DNA of 64,000 bases from a virus: positions 1 through 64,000 of the IMG/VR virus record IMGVR_UViG_3300032223_002784. The stretch is one strand, 5' to 3'. Each line of letters opens with the position of its first letter. Within the stretch, counting starts at the first letter, position 1. The translations under genes and the position numbers were made by a program. Under the pieces are notes generated by a model, which searched no databases, had not been told where the DNA came from, and saw nothing but the letters and a program-made list of their open reading frames with translations. Below are positions 6,223 through 13,295 of this stretch, piece after piece.

Positions 6223-6309
6223 TTAATTCTTATGCCAACGCTTTAAATGGCATTTGAAGGATAGTCCAACAATAATGCCCATGCTAGCCCAAAGTAACAA
6301 ACAGTCCAT
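6223..6309 (-). CDS. 28-residue membrane peptide
   Basis: Encodes MDCLLLWASMGIIVGLSFK and a basic tail (CHLKRWHKN): a single-pass peptide with positive-inside orientation. Its ATG overlaps the stop of the DUF1003-like membrane gene (TAATG), preceded by GGAGGAATA, a strong binding site. Function unknown, perhaps a partner of the upstream membrane protein. Confidence 0.55.
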   Translation of the reverse strand: MDCLLLWASMGIIVGLSFKCHLKRWHKN

Positions 6310-6623
6310 TATTCCTCCTCATCCTTGAGGTTTCTAATGTCTTCCTGCATATCTCTAATGGCCTCATGAATATCTTCAACCATCCATTTAGTTTCTTTAG
6401 ATATAGATAGATCTTTACGTGCAATTTTCTTTTCTTGCTCCCCTTCACGATTACCTGAAGAAAGTAATAGGGAAGACAATATAATGGCCTCTAAGGACAC
6501 TATAAGGGTCAATAAACCATATGGGAAGGCTTCTACGCCACATCCAATCCATACTCCCCACCAAATAGCATGGAAAATAACAAAAAGTGGGTGTGCAGAA
6601 ATTTGAGCTGTCCAATCGGACAA
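6309..6623 (-). CDS. DUF1003-like membrane protein
   Basis: Two hydrophobic helices (about 12-29 and 34-55) separated by a short Pro/Tyr turn, then SSGNREGEQEKKIARKDLSI and a coiled acidic tail. That order (HPLF...W, PFP-like turn, LSLEA, S-x-NR) is the signature of the DUF1003 family of bacterial membrane proteins of unknown role. The given start is TTG; no ATG or GTG exists in frame. An upstream ATT preceded by AGAGG would add 17 residues, so the true start is unsettled. Confidence 0.65.
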   Translation of the reverse strand: MSDWTAQISAHPLFVIFHAIWWGVWIGCGVEAFPYGLLTLIVSLEAIILSSLLLSSGNREGEQEKKIARKDLSISKETKWMVEDIHEAIRDMQEDIRNLKDEEE

Positions 6624-6717: not shown

Positions 6718-6945
6718 TTATTTAATTACGGATTTTGTCTCTTGTGACGCTTGCATCATCAAGTTATTAAAATGCTCCATAAAATTATTAATAACAAAAA
6801 TGGTGTCTTCTACTACATTCTTTTTTGCTTCTTCAAGCTCTTCTAAGGTAAAACGATCATTGATTGCCCACTGCTCTAGCAAATCTCTTGCTACTGCTGT
6901 TGTAATATCCTCAAGTTGATTCATTGGAATTGGTACGCTAGACAT
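6718..6945 (-). CDS. 75-residue helical hypothetical protein
   Basis: An acidic helical protein (MSSVPIPMNQLEDITTAV...), without Cys or membrane segments. Its start overlaps the stop of the membrane gene upstream by one base (TAATG). The pattern of hydrophobic heptads suggests a helical bundle or dimer. No family recognised. Confidence 0.65.
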   Translation of the reverse strand: MSSVPIPMNQLEDITTAVARDLLEQWAINDRFTLEELEEAKKNVVEDTIFVINNFMEHFNNLMMQASQETKSVIK

Positions 6946-7226
6946 TATTTACTCCCTTTATTATAGTTCATAGGGTTAATATGAAACATGTTTCTAATTC
7001 TATTTTTTCTTGCTTCTTCAAGCCACTTATTAATGTTGAAAAAATACACTGAAATATAAATTGTTGATCCAAATATGAATCCCCATTGCTTTGTTGTAAT
7101 GGCATACCATACCCAAGCACATTCAGTTACTATTCCTACTGCATATCCCCGCCAGTTTTTACGACCAGTCAGGTAAATTCCTATAACACCAACACAAGAA
7201 AGTGCCCATGATTGCCATTGTTGCAT
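6945..7226 (-). CDS. three-helix membrane protein
   Basis: 93 residues with hydrophobic stretches near 5-20, 27-43 and 48-64, the phrase GRKNWRGYAVGIVTECAWVWYA, and a basic C-terminal tail. Related small membrane proteins with a GR-x-WGW-like turn are frequent in actinobacteriophages; some resemble the core of PnuC-type transporters, but at this size transport is doubtful. It is the first gene of the train left of the terminator at 7255-7276. Confidence 0.65.
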   Translation of the reverse strand: MQQWQSWALSCVGVIGIYLTGRKNWRGYAVGIVTECAWVWYAITTKQWGFIFGSTIYISVYFFNINKWLEEARKNRIRNMFHINPMNYNKGSK

Positions 7227-7290: not shown

Positions 7291-8370
7291 TTACTTAGTT
7301 GTTGCAAAGCCATAACGCTTTGCCTTTGCATTGTACTTAGCAAGAAGTGCCTTGTACTTTGCGGTTGCTGTTGCGGAATCAGCAACATGTGTTGCCTTTT
7401 CTGTTGCAAGGGCAACATCTGCTAGAACCTTTGCATCTGCAGCGGATTTTACATCAGCAGCGTGTGCATCTGCAGCGGATTTTACATCAGCAGCGTGGGC
7501 TGCTTTTTCTGCTGCAAGCGCAGCGTTAGCATTAGCAAGTTGTGCAGACAATGATGAAATTGTTGCATTAAGGTCTGAAATAGACACTGAAATTGCTCCA
7601 GTTGTAATTGGAGTAGCAAGTCCTAGTACTGGTGTAATTGAAGCAGAAGTTGAAACTACTGCTGTAATTGAAGAACCAGTTGCTGGTGCAAGCTTATATG
7701 AAGCAGAGCCCCACACTGTAGCACCAGTTAGGTCTGCATCTGCTGCAGCCTTAGTTGATGTTACCAATGTCTTTGTTGTAGAAAGATCTGAGAATGTACC
7801 ATTAACTAATGTTACAGCCAAAGATGCTGACTCAACTGGGTTGCCAAATACGTCTGTTGCTGTTGCTGCTACAGTACCAATTGTACCTGTTGCAATTGCA
7901 CCTGGAAGTGATACAGAAACATTATAAATTGTTCCTGATGTTCCGTGAATATAAACTACTGTTGAATATGCACCATTTGTAATGGTTACAGAACCAACTG
8001 ATGTGCTAGTTGTGTAAGCATAGACAGTTACTGCTGAACCTTGTGAAGTTGCTGAATATGATGATATTCCTGATGCAACCGTCTTAGGTGCTGCTACTGA
8101 ATCAAGTGCAACAACAAGCTTAACGCCTGATGCTACGAATGATACTACAGTACCTGTATCTGCTGTTGCAGAAAGGGCTACTGAGTGACCCGCATCAATT
8201 ACATTTGATGATGGGACTGCTACTGCTTGTGAGCCAGCATATGTGTTTACAGTTGTGTTTGCACTGCCTGCTACTGTTACTGCCAGCGGGGCAGCGTGAG
8301 CAGAAGTAGAGAGTCCTACGATTGCTAGAGCTGCAGCAGAAGCAAGTGCGATCTTCTTTGTTACCTTCAT
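7291..8370 (-). CDS. secreted surface-type protein with coiled-coil end
   Basis: 359 residues. A Sec signal peptide spans 1-26 (MKVTKKIALASAAALAIVG, cleavage after AHA). A long Ala/Thr/Val/Ser-rich region with immunoglobulin-like repeats and no Cys follows, then an alpha-helical C-terminal part (about 270-345) with an 11-residue perfect tandem duplication, and a short basic end. It looks like an actinobacterial cell-surface or S-layer-type protein rather than a virion part. It has its own consensus promoter and a strong terminator, so it is an independent moron-like unit. It may act in superinfection exclusion or surface remodelling; this is inference. Confidence 0.7.
   Translation of the reverse strand: MKVTKKIALASAAALAIVGLSTSAHAAPLAVTVAGSANTTVNTYAGSQAVAVPSSNVIDAGHSVALSATADTGTVVSFVASGVKLVVALDSVAAPKTVASGISSYSATSQGSAVTVYAYTTSTSVGSVTITNGAYSTVVYIHGTSGTIYNVSVSLPGAIATGTIGTVAATATDVFGNPVESASLAVTLVNGTFSDLSTTKTLVTSTKAAADADLTGATVWGSASYKLAPATGSSITAVVSTSASITPVLGLATPITTGAISVSISDLNATISSLSAQLANANAALAAEKAAHAADVKSAADAHAADVKSAADAKVLADVALATEKATHVADSATATAKYKALLAKYNAKAKRYGFATTK
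7432..7497 (-). repeat. perfect 33-base tandem duplication
   Basis: Two identical 33-base units, 7432-7464 and 7465-7497, lie in the coiled-coil part of the secreted protein. Each encodes eleven residues (HAADVKSAADA register). The perfect identity points to a recent expansion. Confidence 0.85.
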
Positions 8371-8433
8371 GTTTTTCCTATCTAGTTAGTATCCCTGTAC
8401 AGGATAATGACTGCCAATCGCAGCCAATAATTG

Positions 8434-8463
8434 ATTATAGCGTATTAGTTATATTTTTGTCAA
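8434..8463 (-). promoter_or_regulatory. consensus promoter of the secreted-protein gene
   Basis: TTGACA, 18-base spacer, TATAAT: both hexamers are perfect. It starts right after the peptidase gene stop and gives a leader of about 55 bases with AGGAAAAAC before the ATG. Likely one of the strongest promoters in the window. Confidence 0.85.
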
Positions 8464-8466
8464 GTC

Positions 8467-9012
8467 TTATCTTGACCTTATATTCTTACTTTGTTTAACA
8501 ATTTGAAATGGACCTGCCGTATATGGACTAAGTTTCTCTGCAATTTCTAACGCTTTTTCTACAGTAGCACCTGTATGCAAAGCCCCCACAGCAAATGGTG
8601 CACCCGAACCAACACCATAAATGCCTGTTTGATCCATTAAAACACTAAAATCATCGCTTATGTTGAATAGTTCTCCATCTACAGCCAAAAGAATTTCAAA
8701 TCCAGAATCTTTATCTTCTTTATCAAGCTTATATCCATTTTCTTCAAGTGCTTCTTTCATGGAAGGCACAACATCTGTAATCATATACTTATAAAGATTT
8801 TTTCTTTGTGATGCATTTGGCATTGGTGGAATCCATAGATGCATAAAAATATCACATGCTGCTACATCACCAGCCCCGCCAAGTAAATAGCCGTTGTTAT
8901 TAATAATTTTTGCCATTTGTGGATGAATATGTTTGTTTGTTCCTGCAGTTACTAGACTATCAGCACCCATAATGACATGTCCGTTTTTAACTACACCCAC
9001 AATTGTTGTCAT
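8467..9012 (-). CDS. Ntn-hydrolase, proteasome beta/HslV-like peptidase
   Basis: 181 residues opening MTTIVGVVKNGHVIMGADS. Removal of Met exposes Thr1, the expected nucleophile; Asp17 (GADS), Lys in MAKI near 34, and the GVGSG segment near 133-137 match the proteasome beta/HslV fold. A threonine peptidase that degrades unfolded or host proteins is the family inference. No alpha subunit or unfoldase (HslU, Mpa) is in the window, so it may assemble alone or use a host ATPase. It is the last gene of the GroES-WhiB-thioredoxin operon and overlaps thioredoxin by ATGA. Confidence 0.8.
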   Translation of the reverse strand: MTTIVGVVKNGHVIMGADSLVTAGTNKHIHPQMAKIINNNGYLLGGAGDVAACDIFMHLWIPPMPNASQRKNLYKYMITDVVPSMKEALEENGYKLDKEDKDSGFEILLAVDGELFNISDDFSVLMDQTGIYGVGSGAPFAVGALHTGATVEKALEIAEKLSPYTAGPFQIVKQSKNIRSR

Positions 9013-9308
9013 GCTTTACCCAGTTCTCCTAATATTCCCTCGCTTGTACGAGATAGAATTGGTTTGAGGATTTCTCCCTTATTCATAACAAAAATCTGAG
9101 GAATGCTCTTCAGATTATAATATTCTAGCATATTTGCTGTCATTTCGTCAACATCAACCATATAATAATTAGTTTCAGGATCCATTACGGCTACTTTGCC
9201 ATAATGTGGCTTTAATTGTTTACATGGGCTGCACCATGTTGCTGTAAAATAAACTACACATTCATCTTCAGCAATAAATTCATTTACATCATTCGTAACC
9301 TTAAGCAA
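9009..9308 (-). CDS. thioredoxin
   Basis: A 99-residue thioredoxin fold that reduces disulfides. The active site is TWCSPCK (Cys26 and Cys29) and the cis-Pro loop is KSIPQIF. The CSPC variant differs from the common CGPC, which can shift redox potential. Possible partners are the phage WhiB iron-sulfur protein or a ribonucleotide reductase outside this window. It overlaps the peptidase gene by four bases and the zinc-finger gene by eight, so the products should be made together. Confidence 0.9.
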   Translation of the reverse strand: MLKVTNDVNEFIAEDECVVYFTATWCSPCKQLKPHYGKVAVMDPETNYYMVDVDEMTANMLEYYNLKSIPQIFVMNKGEILKPILSRTSEGILGELGKA

Positions 9309-9531
9309 TTAATTCCTCCGCAGATATTGTTTTACCTAAATAACGACGCTTAATAATGTAATCTCTAACTGAGTCAGCACCATTCTGCCTACCGCCCAAA
9401 ATTACAACCCACCTAGGTTCTAACTTAAGGTCTATACATTCTTGACACATAAATAAATTAACTCCATTAATAATTGCAGATTTAAATGGATGTAGCTGAT
9501 CTTTTTGCTTATCGCACGAAAAGCATTTCAT
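9301..9531 (-). CDS. two-knuckle zinc-finger protein
   Basis: 76 residues with CFSC near 3-6 and CQEC near 29-32 forming one zinc site, then a conserved-looking segment (EPRWVVILGGRQNG) and a helical end. Small proteins of this layout recur in freshwater actinophage genomes, usually as hypothetical genes. It overlaps thioredoxin and the gene before it. Role unknown; a regulatory or chaperone partner in this operon is plausible. Confidence 0.65.
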   Translation of the reverse strand: MKCFSCDKQKDQLHPFKSAIINGVNLFMCQECIDLKLEPRWVVILGGRQNGADSVRDYIIKRRYLGKTISAEELIA

Positions 9532-9749
9532 TCTAATTCTTCCTCTTCTTCAATTTCATCTACATACCCTATGCCTATTTCATCTATAATTATAAAGTCA
9601 TCATTAATAACTTCAATGGTATATCTTATTCCCGCATCATAATATTCAATTATTGATGCATATGCGCCATAAGAAACAATGGTGCCGTAAATGCCTTCAT
9701 CTGAAAGATAAACATACTTTACTGTATCTTCATTTTCATTTATTGACAT
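9528..9749 (-). CDS. acidic beta-rich hypothetical protein
   Basis: 73 residues, strongly acidic, with alternating beta pattern (VKYVYLSDEGIYGTIVSYG) and a tail of Glu. The fold could be a small SH3- or Tudor-like barrel by pattern alone. It overlaps the zinc-finger gene by ATGA and the upstream gene by 14 bases. No family recognised. Confidence 0.65.
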   Translation of the reverse strand: MSINENEDTVKYVYLSDEGIYGTIVSYGAYASIIEYYDAGIRYTIEVINDDFIIIDEIGIGYVDEIEEEEELE

Positions 9750-9993
9750 TTGGAGTTGCTATCCCTTCTATTTCACATGGTGTTCCGTAAGCCATTATTA
9801 ACTGTCTTACCAACAAAAGATATTCCATTAATTGAAATCTTTGGCTTTCATTATATTCCATAACATTCTCTTCATACACGGTTACAGCCAGATAATTAGG
9901 TCTAGCCCTAATATCCATTTTTAAATGCTTTACGGGACATTTAATTTCCCGTATTTTTTTAGCCATTTCAATTGTGTATTGTATTTTTGCCAT
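9736..9993 (-). CDS. 85-residue hypothetical protein
   Basis: Begins MAKIQYTIEMAKKIREIKCP, a basic N-terminal half followed by a helical middle (RFQLMEYLLLVRQLIMAYG). No complete motif is visible. It overlaps WhiB by 26 bases. Its place directly downstream of WhiB suggests joint expression only. Confidence 0.65.
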   Translation of the reverse strand: MAKIQYTIEMAKKIREIKCPVKHLKMDIRARPNYLAVTVYEENVMEYNESQRFQLMEYLLLVRQLIMAYGTPCEIEGIATPNVNK

Positions 9994-10303
9994 GAATTTT
10001 TTTCAGTTTCTTCCAAACTTCTTGATCTTTATGTGAATTATGTTGCTTATCTGGTCTTCCAAGATCCATATAAACACCACCCCTTACACCCTTTTCTTTA
10101 TTCTCAATTCCTTCTGCATGACATTGTTTAATAACAGGACAACTCAAACAAACTTGATCTATTTGTTTAGCAAGCTCCTTGTCATTTTCATAATCATCGT
10201 AGAACCAATTGATTGACATATTTTTACAGGCTGCTAAGTGATACCACTTTACATCTAGTTCATCTATCCCAAGCTTTTCAAATAAGTTGGGCATATTTAT
10301 CAC
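9968..10303 (-). CDS. WhiB-family [4Fe-4S] transcription regulator
   Basis: WhiB proteins are restricted to actinobacteria and their phages, bind sigma-A region 4 and sense redox or nitric oxide. The four cluster ligands are visible at Cys26, Cys52, Cys55 and Cys61 (AACKNM, VCLSCPVIKQC). The turn motif is GVRGGVY at 72-78 where most members have GVWGG, so the Trp that packs on sigma is replaced by Arg. A basic tail follows (KKLKKIHGKN). Length 111 residues is normal. It sits in the middle of the GroES-to-peptidase operon and is probably a takeover regulator of host transcription. Confidence 0.9.
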   Translation of the reverse strand: MINMPNLFEKLGIDELDVKWYHLAACKNMSINWFYDDYENDKELAKQIDQVCLSCPVIKQCHAEGIENKEKGVRGGVYMDLGRPDKQHNSHKDQEVWKKLKKIHGKNTIHN

Positions 10304-10508
10304 TTACATCCCAAGTACCGTCCGACTTTAAACGATAACGATTTGCAAATCCCCACTTGTTATTTCTGAACATGCCTTTTGGATCCATAAAAGCACTTTT
10401 GCTTGGAGCCCATCTTACGATAGTATATCCATCCCAAAAGAAACCTTCTTTTTTGTTTTTTTCAACAAAATTGTGTGCTTGTTCATAATTCAATGTAATT
10501 TTAGCCAT
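10278..10508 (-). CDS. 76-residue basic hypothetical protein
   Basis: Begins MAKITLNYEQAHNFVEKNK and contains many aromatic and basic residues (GFFWDGYTIVRW, NNKWGFANRYRLK). This pattern resembles small DNA- or RNA-binding modules but no known family is evident. It lies between GroES and WhiB, overlapping them by 8 and 26 bases. Confidence 0.65.
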   Translation of the reverse strand: MAKITLNYEQAHNFVEKNKKEGFFWDGYTIVRWAPSKSAFMDPKGMFRNNKWGFANRYRLKSDGTWDVSDKYAQLI

Positions 10509-10806
10509 TTTTATCTACTCCAAATAGGTTGCGCCAATTGACGAATTGATATGTATTGTTTTGTGAATCTTTAACTTCTGTAGCATTAGCATCGTTATAA
10601 AATACAATTTGTCCAACTTCTAGGGGGACCGTATGAATTCTACCTTCTTGATCTCTTTCTCCTGGTCCAATCGCAATGATTGTCCCACGACTTAATTCTG
10701 CATCAAGAGTAACTGCAGATAAAACAAGTCCTGATGCCGTTGTTCTATCTTCTTGCTCTAGCTTTTCTAGCAATACAAGGCCACCCAATGGCTCAATGTT
10801 TGTCAT
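10501..10806 (-). CDS. groES: GroES-like co-chaperonin
   Basis: Cpn10/GroES caps the GroEL ring and sets the folding chamber; phages such as T4 carry a substitute to fold large capsid proteins. In 101 residues it shows IEPLGGLVLLEKLEQ, a mobile-loop region (TTASGLVLS, 23-31), GTIIAIGPGERD, VGQIVFYND and a C-terminal VNWRNLFGV. It is the first gene of an eight-gene overlapping operon with its own promoter. The leader carries the TAACAAAGGA ribosome-binding motif seen before several other genes. Confidence 0.85.
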   Translation of the reverse strand: MTNIEPLGGLVLLEKLEQEDRTTASGLVLSAVTLDAELSRGTIIAIGPGERDQEGRIHTVPLEVGQIVFYNDANATEVKDSQNNTYQFVNWRNLFGVDKNG

Positions 10807-10839
10807 ATCTTTCCTTTGTTAGTAGGGTTGTTATACTTA

Positions 10840-10869
10840 ATTGTATCATCTAGATACTGTATGTGTCAA
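10840..10869 (-). promoter_or_regulatory. promoter of the GroES-WhiB-Trx-peptidase operon
   Basis: TTGACA, 18-base spacer, TACAAT on the minus strand, giving a leader of about 27 bases before GroES. It is the only clear promoter before the next one at 8434-8463, so it should drive all eight genes. Confidence 0.8.
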
Positions 10870-10871
10870 GC

Positions 10872-11240
10872 TTATTCTTTAATGAATCTAAAAGGTATTC
10901 CAAAAGTTTCAAGGATTTTTACGCATGCAAGATTTCTTGATGATGAGCCAAATACCAATGCAAAGTCAGGAGTAGACTCAATTAAAGTAACATCTGAAAA
11001 TGAAGATTTATCTCTAACTAATTCTTCTTTGATTTTATAGCCTTTTTGACGTAAAAATTTTTCAGTCTTACCTATGTATTCAGTGATCATATTTTCAGCA
11101 CCTTTTTGCCCAGTATGAATAAACAAGTATTCTTTGTCATCTGGGAAAAAGTGTTTACGGTCATCCAATAGGACAGTAACTTGACGAATTAATTCGCTGT
11201 AATCTGTCCATTCTTTACTACCAAAAACTAATACTCTCAT
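10872..11240 (-). CDS. SLOG/YspA-like Rossmann nucleotide-binding protein
   Basis: 122 residues beginning MRVLVFGSKEWTDYSELIR, then a LFIHTGQKGAENMITEY segment and a final ALVFG-S turn. The order (VxGS, helix, HxGxxGA) matches the DUF2493/YspA branch of the SLOG superfamily, which binds nucleotides or nucleoside derivatives. Some relatives act in nucleotide-signal-dependent conflict systems; here no effector is adjacent. It has the TAACAAAGGAG leader motif and a hairpin upstream at 11261-11287. Confidence 0.65.
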   Translation of the reverse strand: MRVLVFGSKEWTDYSELIRQVTVLLDDRKHFFPDDKEYLFIHTGQKGAENMITEYIGKTEKFLRQKGYKIKEELVRDKSSFSDVTLIESTPDFALVFGSSSRNLACVKILETFGIPFRFIKE

Positions 11241-12848: not shown

Positions 12849-12878
12849 ATTATACTATGGCTTTAAGGTCGCTGTCAA
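12849..12878 (-). promoter_or_regulatory. consensus promoter for the three-tRNA cluster
   Basis: TTGACA, 18-base spacer, TATAAT, both perfect, overlapping the end of the Dps gene. It lies about 50 bases before tRNA-Gln and probably makes the Gln-Trp-Arg tRNA precursor. Confidence 0.85.
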
Positions 12879-13295
12879 TTGCCATTGCCAAAAATTATGC
12901 TTGTCTAATCTATCAGCAAGAAAATTAACTAATCCTTGTTCGTCTAACTTGTTTGCATTATCGCATGCTCTTTTTAGCATAGCAATAACCACAATATTTG
13001 TTGAAGATAATTCTTGTAGCATTTGTTTGGCGGATATGTCCGAACTATTATTAGTAATTAAATCACTATTGTGACTCCATGTTTCTAATCCAAATGGTGC
13101 TTTAAATCCAAGTTTTCTCATGTTTTCTGAAATTGGATCAATTGATTCATAAACATCTGAATAAATTTTTAAAAGAAATTTATGGTATTGTGGAAAATTA
13201 GATCCTTCAACATTCCAATGATACCCATGTGATTGAATATACATTTTAACTACCATTGATTGTAGTTTAATTAAATCTTGTTCTAACTCATTCAT
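12855..13295 (-). CDS. dps: Dps-like mini-ferritin
   Basis: Dps dodecamers oxidise Fe(II) with peroxide, store iron and protect DNA. The 146-residue protein shows HGYHWNVEG near 23-31 with His26, His38 twelve residues later, then Asp53 and Glu57 in IDPISENM: the inter-subunit ferroxidase set. The C-terminal helix includes FLADRLDKHNFWQWQLTATL. It overlaps the membrane gene upstream by ATGA. Likely shields phage DNA or cell from oxidative damage, or supplies iron-safe conditions for the WhiB cluster; this last is inference. Confidence 0.85.
   Translation of the reverse strand: MNELEQDLIKLQSMVVKMYIQSHGYHWNVEGSNFPQYHKFLLKIYSDVYESIDPISENMRKLGFKAPFGLETWSHNSDLITNNSSDISAKQMLQELSSTNIVVIAMLKRACDNANKLDEQGLVNFLADRLDKHNFWQWQLTATLKP

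Follow-up and report, generated by a model that had tools for sequence, protein, structure and literature searches.

Gene organization of the operon

The 64,000-nucleotide stretch of viral DNA analysed here (the window) comprises positions 1 to 64,000 of the 92-kb virus record IMGVR_UViG_3300032223_002784, and our subject is a group of eight open reading frames on its minus strand, at positions 8467-10806, that overlap at all seven of their junctions. In the direction of transcription these encode a GroES-like co-chaperonin of 101 amino acids (10501-10806), a protein that we call u76 (10278-10508), a WhiB-like protein (9968-10294), two further small proteins, u85 (9736-9993) and u73 (9528-9749), a zinc-finger protein, ZnF (9301-9531), a thioredoxin (9009-9308) and a proteasome/HslV-like Ntn peptidase of 181 amino acids (8467-9012). 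They lie behind a promoter at 10840-10869 (minus strand), TTGACA-18-TACAAT with a TG before the -10, which matches the consensus at 11 of 12 positions. A first-pass annotation had described eight overlapping genes behind one promoter, and so they are: every reading frame is present, every junction overlaps, and the promoter lies exactly where it had been placed. The families that it named are also correct; the GroES, WhiB and thioredoxin proteins exceed their Pfam cut-offs by a wide margin, and PHROGs assigns the last gene to the phage peptidases of the HslV family.

The G+C content of the 92-kb record is 36.9%. The record is collinear in its structural and replication genes with Streptomyces phage Circinus and, more weakly, with Rhodococcus phage NiceHouse, so the phage is a distant relative of the Stanwilliamsviridae and of Trinavirus. 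This kinship, together with the single WhiB gene in the record, indicates an actinobacterial host. The Nanopelagicales, a low-GC group of freshwater actinobacteria (PMC10202952), would suit the low G+C content, and we infer that the host may belong among them.

The overlaps are of 8 nucleotides between the GroES and u76 genes, 26 between WhiB and u85, 14 between u85 and u73, 4 between u73 and ZnF, 8 between ZnF and thioredoxin, and 4 between thioredoxin and peptidase. That between u76 and WhiB is 26 nucleotides if WhiB starts at the GTG at 10303 and 17 if it starts at the ATG at 10294; the ATG is the more likely start because 17 nucleotides is the commonest overlap at this junction among relatives. 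By a rough gene call, ~39% of adjacent same-strand genes in this genome overlap, and the longest run of overlapping junctions anywhere in it is seven, the operon being one such run. At that frequency seven successive overlaps would arise with a chance of ~0.0014 at a fixed place and of roughly 0.1 somewhere in the genome; overlap by itself is therefore weak evidence and could be due to luck. The same frequency favours a plain account in which the operon is mere bookkeeping, that is, eight unrelated small genes of a compact genome whose order reflects common descent and overlaps that are hard to break. The strong evidence that these genes would form a unit is conservation across viruses, which is much harder to explain by luck.

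A five-gene core conserved among phages

We compared about 180 related loci, partly redundant, which were collected from IMG/VR with GroES, u76, ZnF and the peptidase as queries and from annotated phages with the peptidase, u76 and ZnF. Among 51 loci dereplicated on u76, and counting only cases with room for the next gene, WhiB comes directly after u76 in 50/50, u85 after WhiB in 48/49, u73 after u85 in 43/47 and ZnF after u73 in 38/44. A second anchoring, on ZnF, finds u76, WhiB, u85 and ZnF in order in all 82 loci examined (u73 was missed by its profile in two). Overlap persists across the relatives as well, at the u76/WhiB junction in 93/93 loci and at the u73/ZnF junction in 71/72. The order u76-WhiB-u85-u73-ZnF is common to freshwater and soil virus contigs and to Streptomyces phages of the Stanwilliamsviridae; the block is present in Circinus, Wakanda, SparkleGoddess, Annadreamy, Wofford and Mildred21, with different flanking genes, and in Mildred21 an HNH gene lies inside it with the core order unchanged. 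Rhodococcus phage NiceHouse, whose flanking genes also differ, keeps at least u76-WhiB-u85. Between freshwater and Streptomyces or Rhodococcus sequences the core proteins of unassigned function align over their length at ~20-40% identity, and ZnF at up to 51%; a distant blastn search with the operon against annotated phages gave no match. Judged from sequence and gene order, the long-distance conserved unit is u76-WhiB-u85-u73-ZnF, and GroES, thioredoxin and the peptidase are interchangeable additions to it.

Can common descent in a compact genome explain this? The structural and replication genes are likewise collinear with Circinus and NiceHouse, and the GroES, thioredoxin and peptidase genes vary from locus to locus, as would suit unrelated neighbours. 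On the other hand, the core has stayed intact while the genes on both of its flanks were replaced several times, and it has been kept in a region that has little else in common with Circinus (beyond the Circinus terminase). We therefore hold the bookkeeping account to be possible, if on balance unlikely.

The core module appears to be confined to viruses. A pattern search of 84,980 prokaryotic species (one genome each), which can detect only relatives in which the conserved stretches are retained, found no relative of u76. In the same scan ZnF had one, in a 110-kb contig of a cyanobacterial metagenome-assembled genome (our locus L135, CAINGU010000031.1). The whole array is present in this contig, from the SLOG gene described below through the gene after the peptidase, WhiB included, and the contig is therefore best taken for phage DNA that was mis-binned, likely from an actinophage. 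The first-pass annotation had offered the unassigned genes and the zinc-finger gene as candidate new parts; they are real and conserved across phages, and we found no description of the five-gene module in the literature searched. What is new is that these five genes are recognized as a virus-only module conserved over long distances and are set apart from the accessory genes; phage GroES proteins, phage thioredoxins and proteasome-like phage proteins are already known.

The core proteins

The WhiB-like protein scores 38.3 bits against the Pfam Whib model (cut-off 23.6), and its best match in the PDB is WhiB1 (E 1.7e-13). Its cysteines are spaced C-x25-C-x2-C-x5-C, and all four are invariant in 40 aligned sequences. 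At the position of the G[VI]WGG motif it has GVRGG, a form found in 9/51 loci, while 38/51 have GVWGG.

The first core protein, u76, belongs to phrog_10869, a PHROG with no assigned function, and has invariant tryptophan and glycine positions; its predicted model (pLDDT 90.2) has an alpha/beta fold and no match in the PDB. The u85 model (pLDDT 88.8) has a predicted alpha-beta-beta-alpha-alpha-beta fold, and its significant structural matches, some of them in Trina and Coruscant, are all phage proteins. Its topology is like that of type II KH domains and there were several matches to S3 KH domains, but the best PDB match has an E-value of 0.022, TM-scores do not exceed 0.5 and there is no GxxG between the helices, so a KH/BolA-type assignment was rejected. 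An Elf1-like assignment (E 0.0083, 16 bits against a cut-off of 109) was rejected as well. The window's u73 is a small protein with an acidic tail and had no significant family match. ZnF (phrog_11425, again a PHROG with no assigned function) has a CxxC-x22-CxxC arrangement and an EPR...R..G motif. Weak matches to the ClpX zinc-binding domain recur in 5/41 members and are not significant (12.4 bits against a cut-off of 27, E 0.15; PDB ClpX E 0.18), and we do not claim that ZnF is a ClpX zinc-finger mimic or adaptor.

The accessory genes

The GroES-like protein scores 57.5 bits against Pfam Cpn10 (cut-off 21.1) and carries SGLVL, a hydrophobic motif of the GroEL-binding type, in its mobile loop. 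The thioredoxin gene has a TTG start behind a strong Shine-Dalgarno sequence, GGAGGAA; its product scores 51.4 bits against Pfam Thioredoxin (cut-off 23.5) and has a WCSPC active site (WCxPC in relatives). The peptidase matches phrog_1040, "peptidase HslV family", with an E-value of 5e-33, and falls just under the Pfam Proteasome cut-off (22.2 against 22.4). It fails the HslV equivalog cut-offs (28.7 against 137 and 26.8 against 157.75 bits), and its top PDB match is BPH, with HslV entries next at similar E-values. BPH is a ring peptidase with no known unfoldase (PMC5777263). Residues M1, T2, D18 and K35, the last three being equivalents of Thr1/Asp17/Lys33, are invariant in eight phage proteins, and all of the relatives listed begin with MT, which places the Thr1 directly after the initiating methionine. 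The 92-kb record, which is perhaps incomplete, yielded no GroEL and no AAA_2 ATPase match, that is, no partner of the HslU/ClpX type.

Of 41 testable dereplicated loci, 21 have GroES near the module, 24 have thioredoxin and 30 have the peptidase. In close relatives the eight genes are all present and in order, and some of these loci have one more gene between thioredoxin and peptidase. GroES leads the operon in the group of loci most like the window, lies behind the peptidase in another group (L050-L070) and is absent farther away; thioredoxin has been lost or relocated in the more distant relatives. The Streptomyces and Rhodococcus relatives have the core with no adjacent GroES or peptidase and with thioredoxin elsewhere. 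Phages of Arthrobacter and Microbacterium, among others, in turn encode the peptidase in regions where module genes were not detected, and in DSL-LC01 it stands beside a WhiB gene alone.

These distributions bear directly on the first-pass idea of one package, a single proteostasis or takeover machine in which the peptidase, GroES, thioredoxin and the unassigned proteins cooperate physically. Close relatives do carry all eight genes in the same order behind a conserved promoter, with none of the scattering that would break up a package. As an ancestral unit, though, the package does not stand, since the accessory genes move, separate or vanish in distant phages where the five core genes stay together; GroES changes sides, the peptidase is found where the module is not, and it may have a promoter of its own (below). 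A single machine of this kind is accordingly improbable.

The SLOG/YspA-like gene (minus strand, 10872-11240; its profile match is below cut-off) is the upstream neighbour, beyond the promoter. It lies upstream of the module in 33 of the same 41 loci, though across the promoter from the operon.

Several loci have additional genes among the accessory ones. A protein of ~180 amino acids with a signal-peptide-like start is encoded between thioredoxin and peptidase in L040 (6553-7098) and also in L044, L046 and L015; the L040-type insert contains EEDHLISLQLGG...NLWP, which is HNH-like by eye, and has no Pfam match. In L077, L085 and L197 proteins of ~100 amino acids, resembling a membrane anchor plus coiled coil, are encoded between ZnF and the peptidase.

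Promoters and expression

The operon promoter is kept in 19 of 20 loci in which GroES comes first, and in 18 of these the -35 sits 57-67 nucleotides before the start codon. In most of them AAGC or AGGC precedes the -35, TGA precedes the TACAAT, and the ribosome site is of the AAGGAAA type. Strong promoters of this class also precede replication-region genes in the same genome, so early or middle expression by host sigma-A is likely.

Promoter scoring also picked out ATGACA-18-TATAAT at 9114-9143 (minus strand), inside the thioredoxin gene and upstream of the peptidase. In most loci with thioredoxin and peptidase side by side, a site of this kind lies ~131-142 nucleotides upstream of the peptidase, and its mean best score over 19 non-independent loci is 9.9, compared with 6.6 after synonymous recoding of thioredoxin (for the window alone P=0.25). 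As it exceeds the recoding expectation over the set of loci, the site may drive the peptidase separately, giving it a transcript of its own in addition to that of the operon.

A model for the operon

The explanation that we favour, with a probability of about 0.5, is that this is an early or middle actinophage operon built on an old virus-only WhiB module that reprograms host transcription. It starts from the gene order, the overlaps, the promoter, the conservation across divergent phages and the conserved metal-binding and catalytic residues. The operon would be read from its strong promoter by host RNA polymerase with sigma-A, and the overlapping starts and internal Shine-Dalgarno sequences would couple translation, so as to deliver WhiB and its four small partners in matched amounts. 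The cellular WhiB proteins WhiB3 and WhiB7 are reported to bind the primary sigma factor (PMC10245118, PMC3905903), and by analogy the phage WhiB would bind an Fe-S cluster and region 4 of host sigma-A and thereby redirect or block host promoters. The u76, u85, u73 and ZnF proteins would act in the same process as WhiB, perhaps in one complex. Around this module the freshwater lineage would have added genes for host folding, redox and proteolysis: GroES would steer host GroEL to phage proteins, thioredoxin would keep thiols reduced, and the proteasome-like ring peptidase, with no phage unfoldase, would degrade unfolded or small substrates without ATP. The record yielded neither GroEL nor an AAA_2 ATPase, so the most likely partner of GroES is the GroEL of the host, and the peptidase in all likelihood acts without HslU. 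It is in this form that we infer the "coordinated takeover" of the first-pass annotation.

Several points weigh against this explanation. Genes of one operon need not serve one process, and GroES, thioredoxin and the peptidase come and go. The GVRGG of the window's WhiB may alter its binding to sigma-A. The four partner proteins have no functional annotation, and the u76 and u85 models have no convincing fold match in the PDB. The early or middle timing is read from promoter class only, and the record may be a fragment, so that the lack of GroEL and HslU in it is not proven for the phage.

A more specific proposal is that the five core proteins make up a dedicated viral transcription-takeover complex, of WhiB and four obligate small partners, that reprograms the host sigma-A holoenzyme in phages ranging from those of Streptomyces to those of freshwater actinobacteria, with at least two of the partners having no convincing PDB fold match. 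We offer this as a speculative and decidedly doubtful extension of the favoured explanation.

Nearby features of the window

Directly after the peptidase gene a promoter with a perfect match to consensus (TTGACA-18-TATAAT, 12/12; minus strand, 8434-8463) begins the next transcription unit. It is followed by a conserved 5' leader (8371-8434, minus strand) before a gene for a signal-peptide-like protein (7291-8370). In the leader hairpin (helix 1) both-side changes occur in 6/7 pairs, and 92% of cells are paired over 20 sequences; the hairpin is followed by ATTATCCTGTACAGGGATACTAA, which is nearly invariant, and in the predicted fold of the window's sequence the TCCTGT within it pairs with the ribosome site. 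The exact 22-nucleotide core of the leader is present in 22 IMG/VR stretches. The leader had no match in Rfam, a scan against which gave only tRNAs at gathering scores, and it is possibly a new regulatory RNA leader. Downstream of this unit lie two genes, one for a DUF1003 membrane protein and one for a small protein that weakly matches an NMN transporter (6309-6623 and 6945-7226). On the other side, near the operon, there is a ferritin-like gene, Dps-type by eye (12855-13295; Pfam Ferritin 54.3 bits against 24.5).

Comparison with known systems

Like T4 gp31 and other phage GroES proteins (PMC6318259), the window's GroES-like protein comes with no phage GroEL in the record and is expected to use that of the host; it differs from gp31 in being a recognizable GroES sequence and the first gene of a WhiB operon. 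The peptidase shares the Thr1/Asp17/Lys33 triad with the group I proteasome-like proteins BPH, HslV, PPH and AAH, which have known phage members (PMC8665760, PMC5777263). It resembles BPH in that no partner unfoldase was found for it either, differs from HslV in lying below the cut-offs of the HslV models, and at 181 amino acids differs from PPH, which has ~140 residues and lacks helix H2. The AAH type was not found in actinophages (PMC8665760). By our findings, many actinophage genomes encode a proteasome-like peptidase of the HslV/BPH group, for which we make no claim of AAH membership (cf. PMC8665760).

Mycobacteriophage TM4 likewise encodes a WhiB-like protein that probably acts on host transcription, as the window's may by analogy, and this WhiB is reported to prevent superinfection (Rybniker et al. 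2010, as cited in PMC8612146 and PMC10202952). The same sources credit it with repression of host whiB2 as well, which raises the alternative that the core serves for superinfection exclusion or counter-defence instead of a general transcription takeover. Six operon proteins compared with the PADLOC defence profiles gave no match, however, and no feature of the core suggests defence, and we give this alternative little credence. TM4 differs from the phages considered here in that the consulted parts of these sources contain no report of a five-gene module in it.

The closest known counterpart is the whiB locus of the Stanwilliamsviridae (Circinus, Wakanda, Annadreamy, Wofford and Mildred21), which has the same five genes in the same order with overlapping starts and, in some of these phages, a promoter-like site at a similar place, and in which only WhiB is annotated, the rest being hypothetical. 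Synteny around actinophage WhiB genes has been surveyed and called cluster-specific, and the consulted part of that survey does not describe the five-gene block (PMC8612146). The Stanwilliamsviridae locus differs from that of the window in having tRNA and membrane-protein genes beside the block and no GroES, thioredoxin or peptidase. The fixed set of four partner genes that the two have in common gives a direct, testable handle on phage WhiB.

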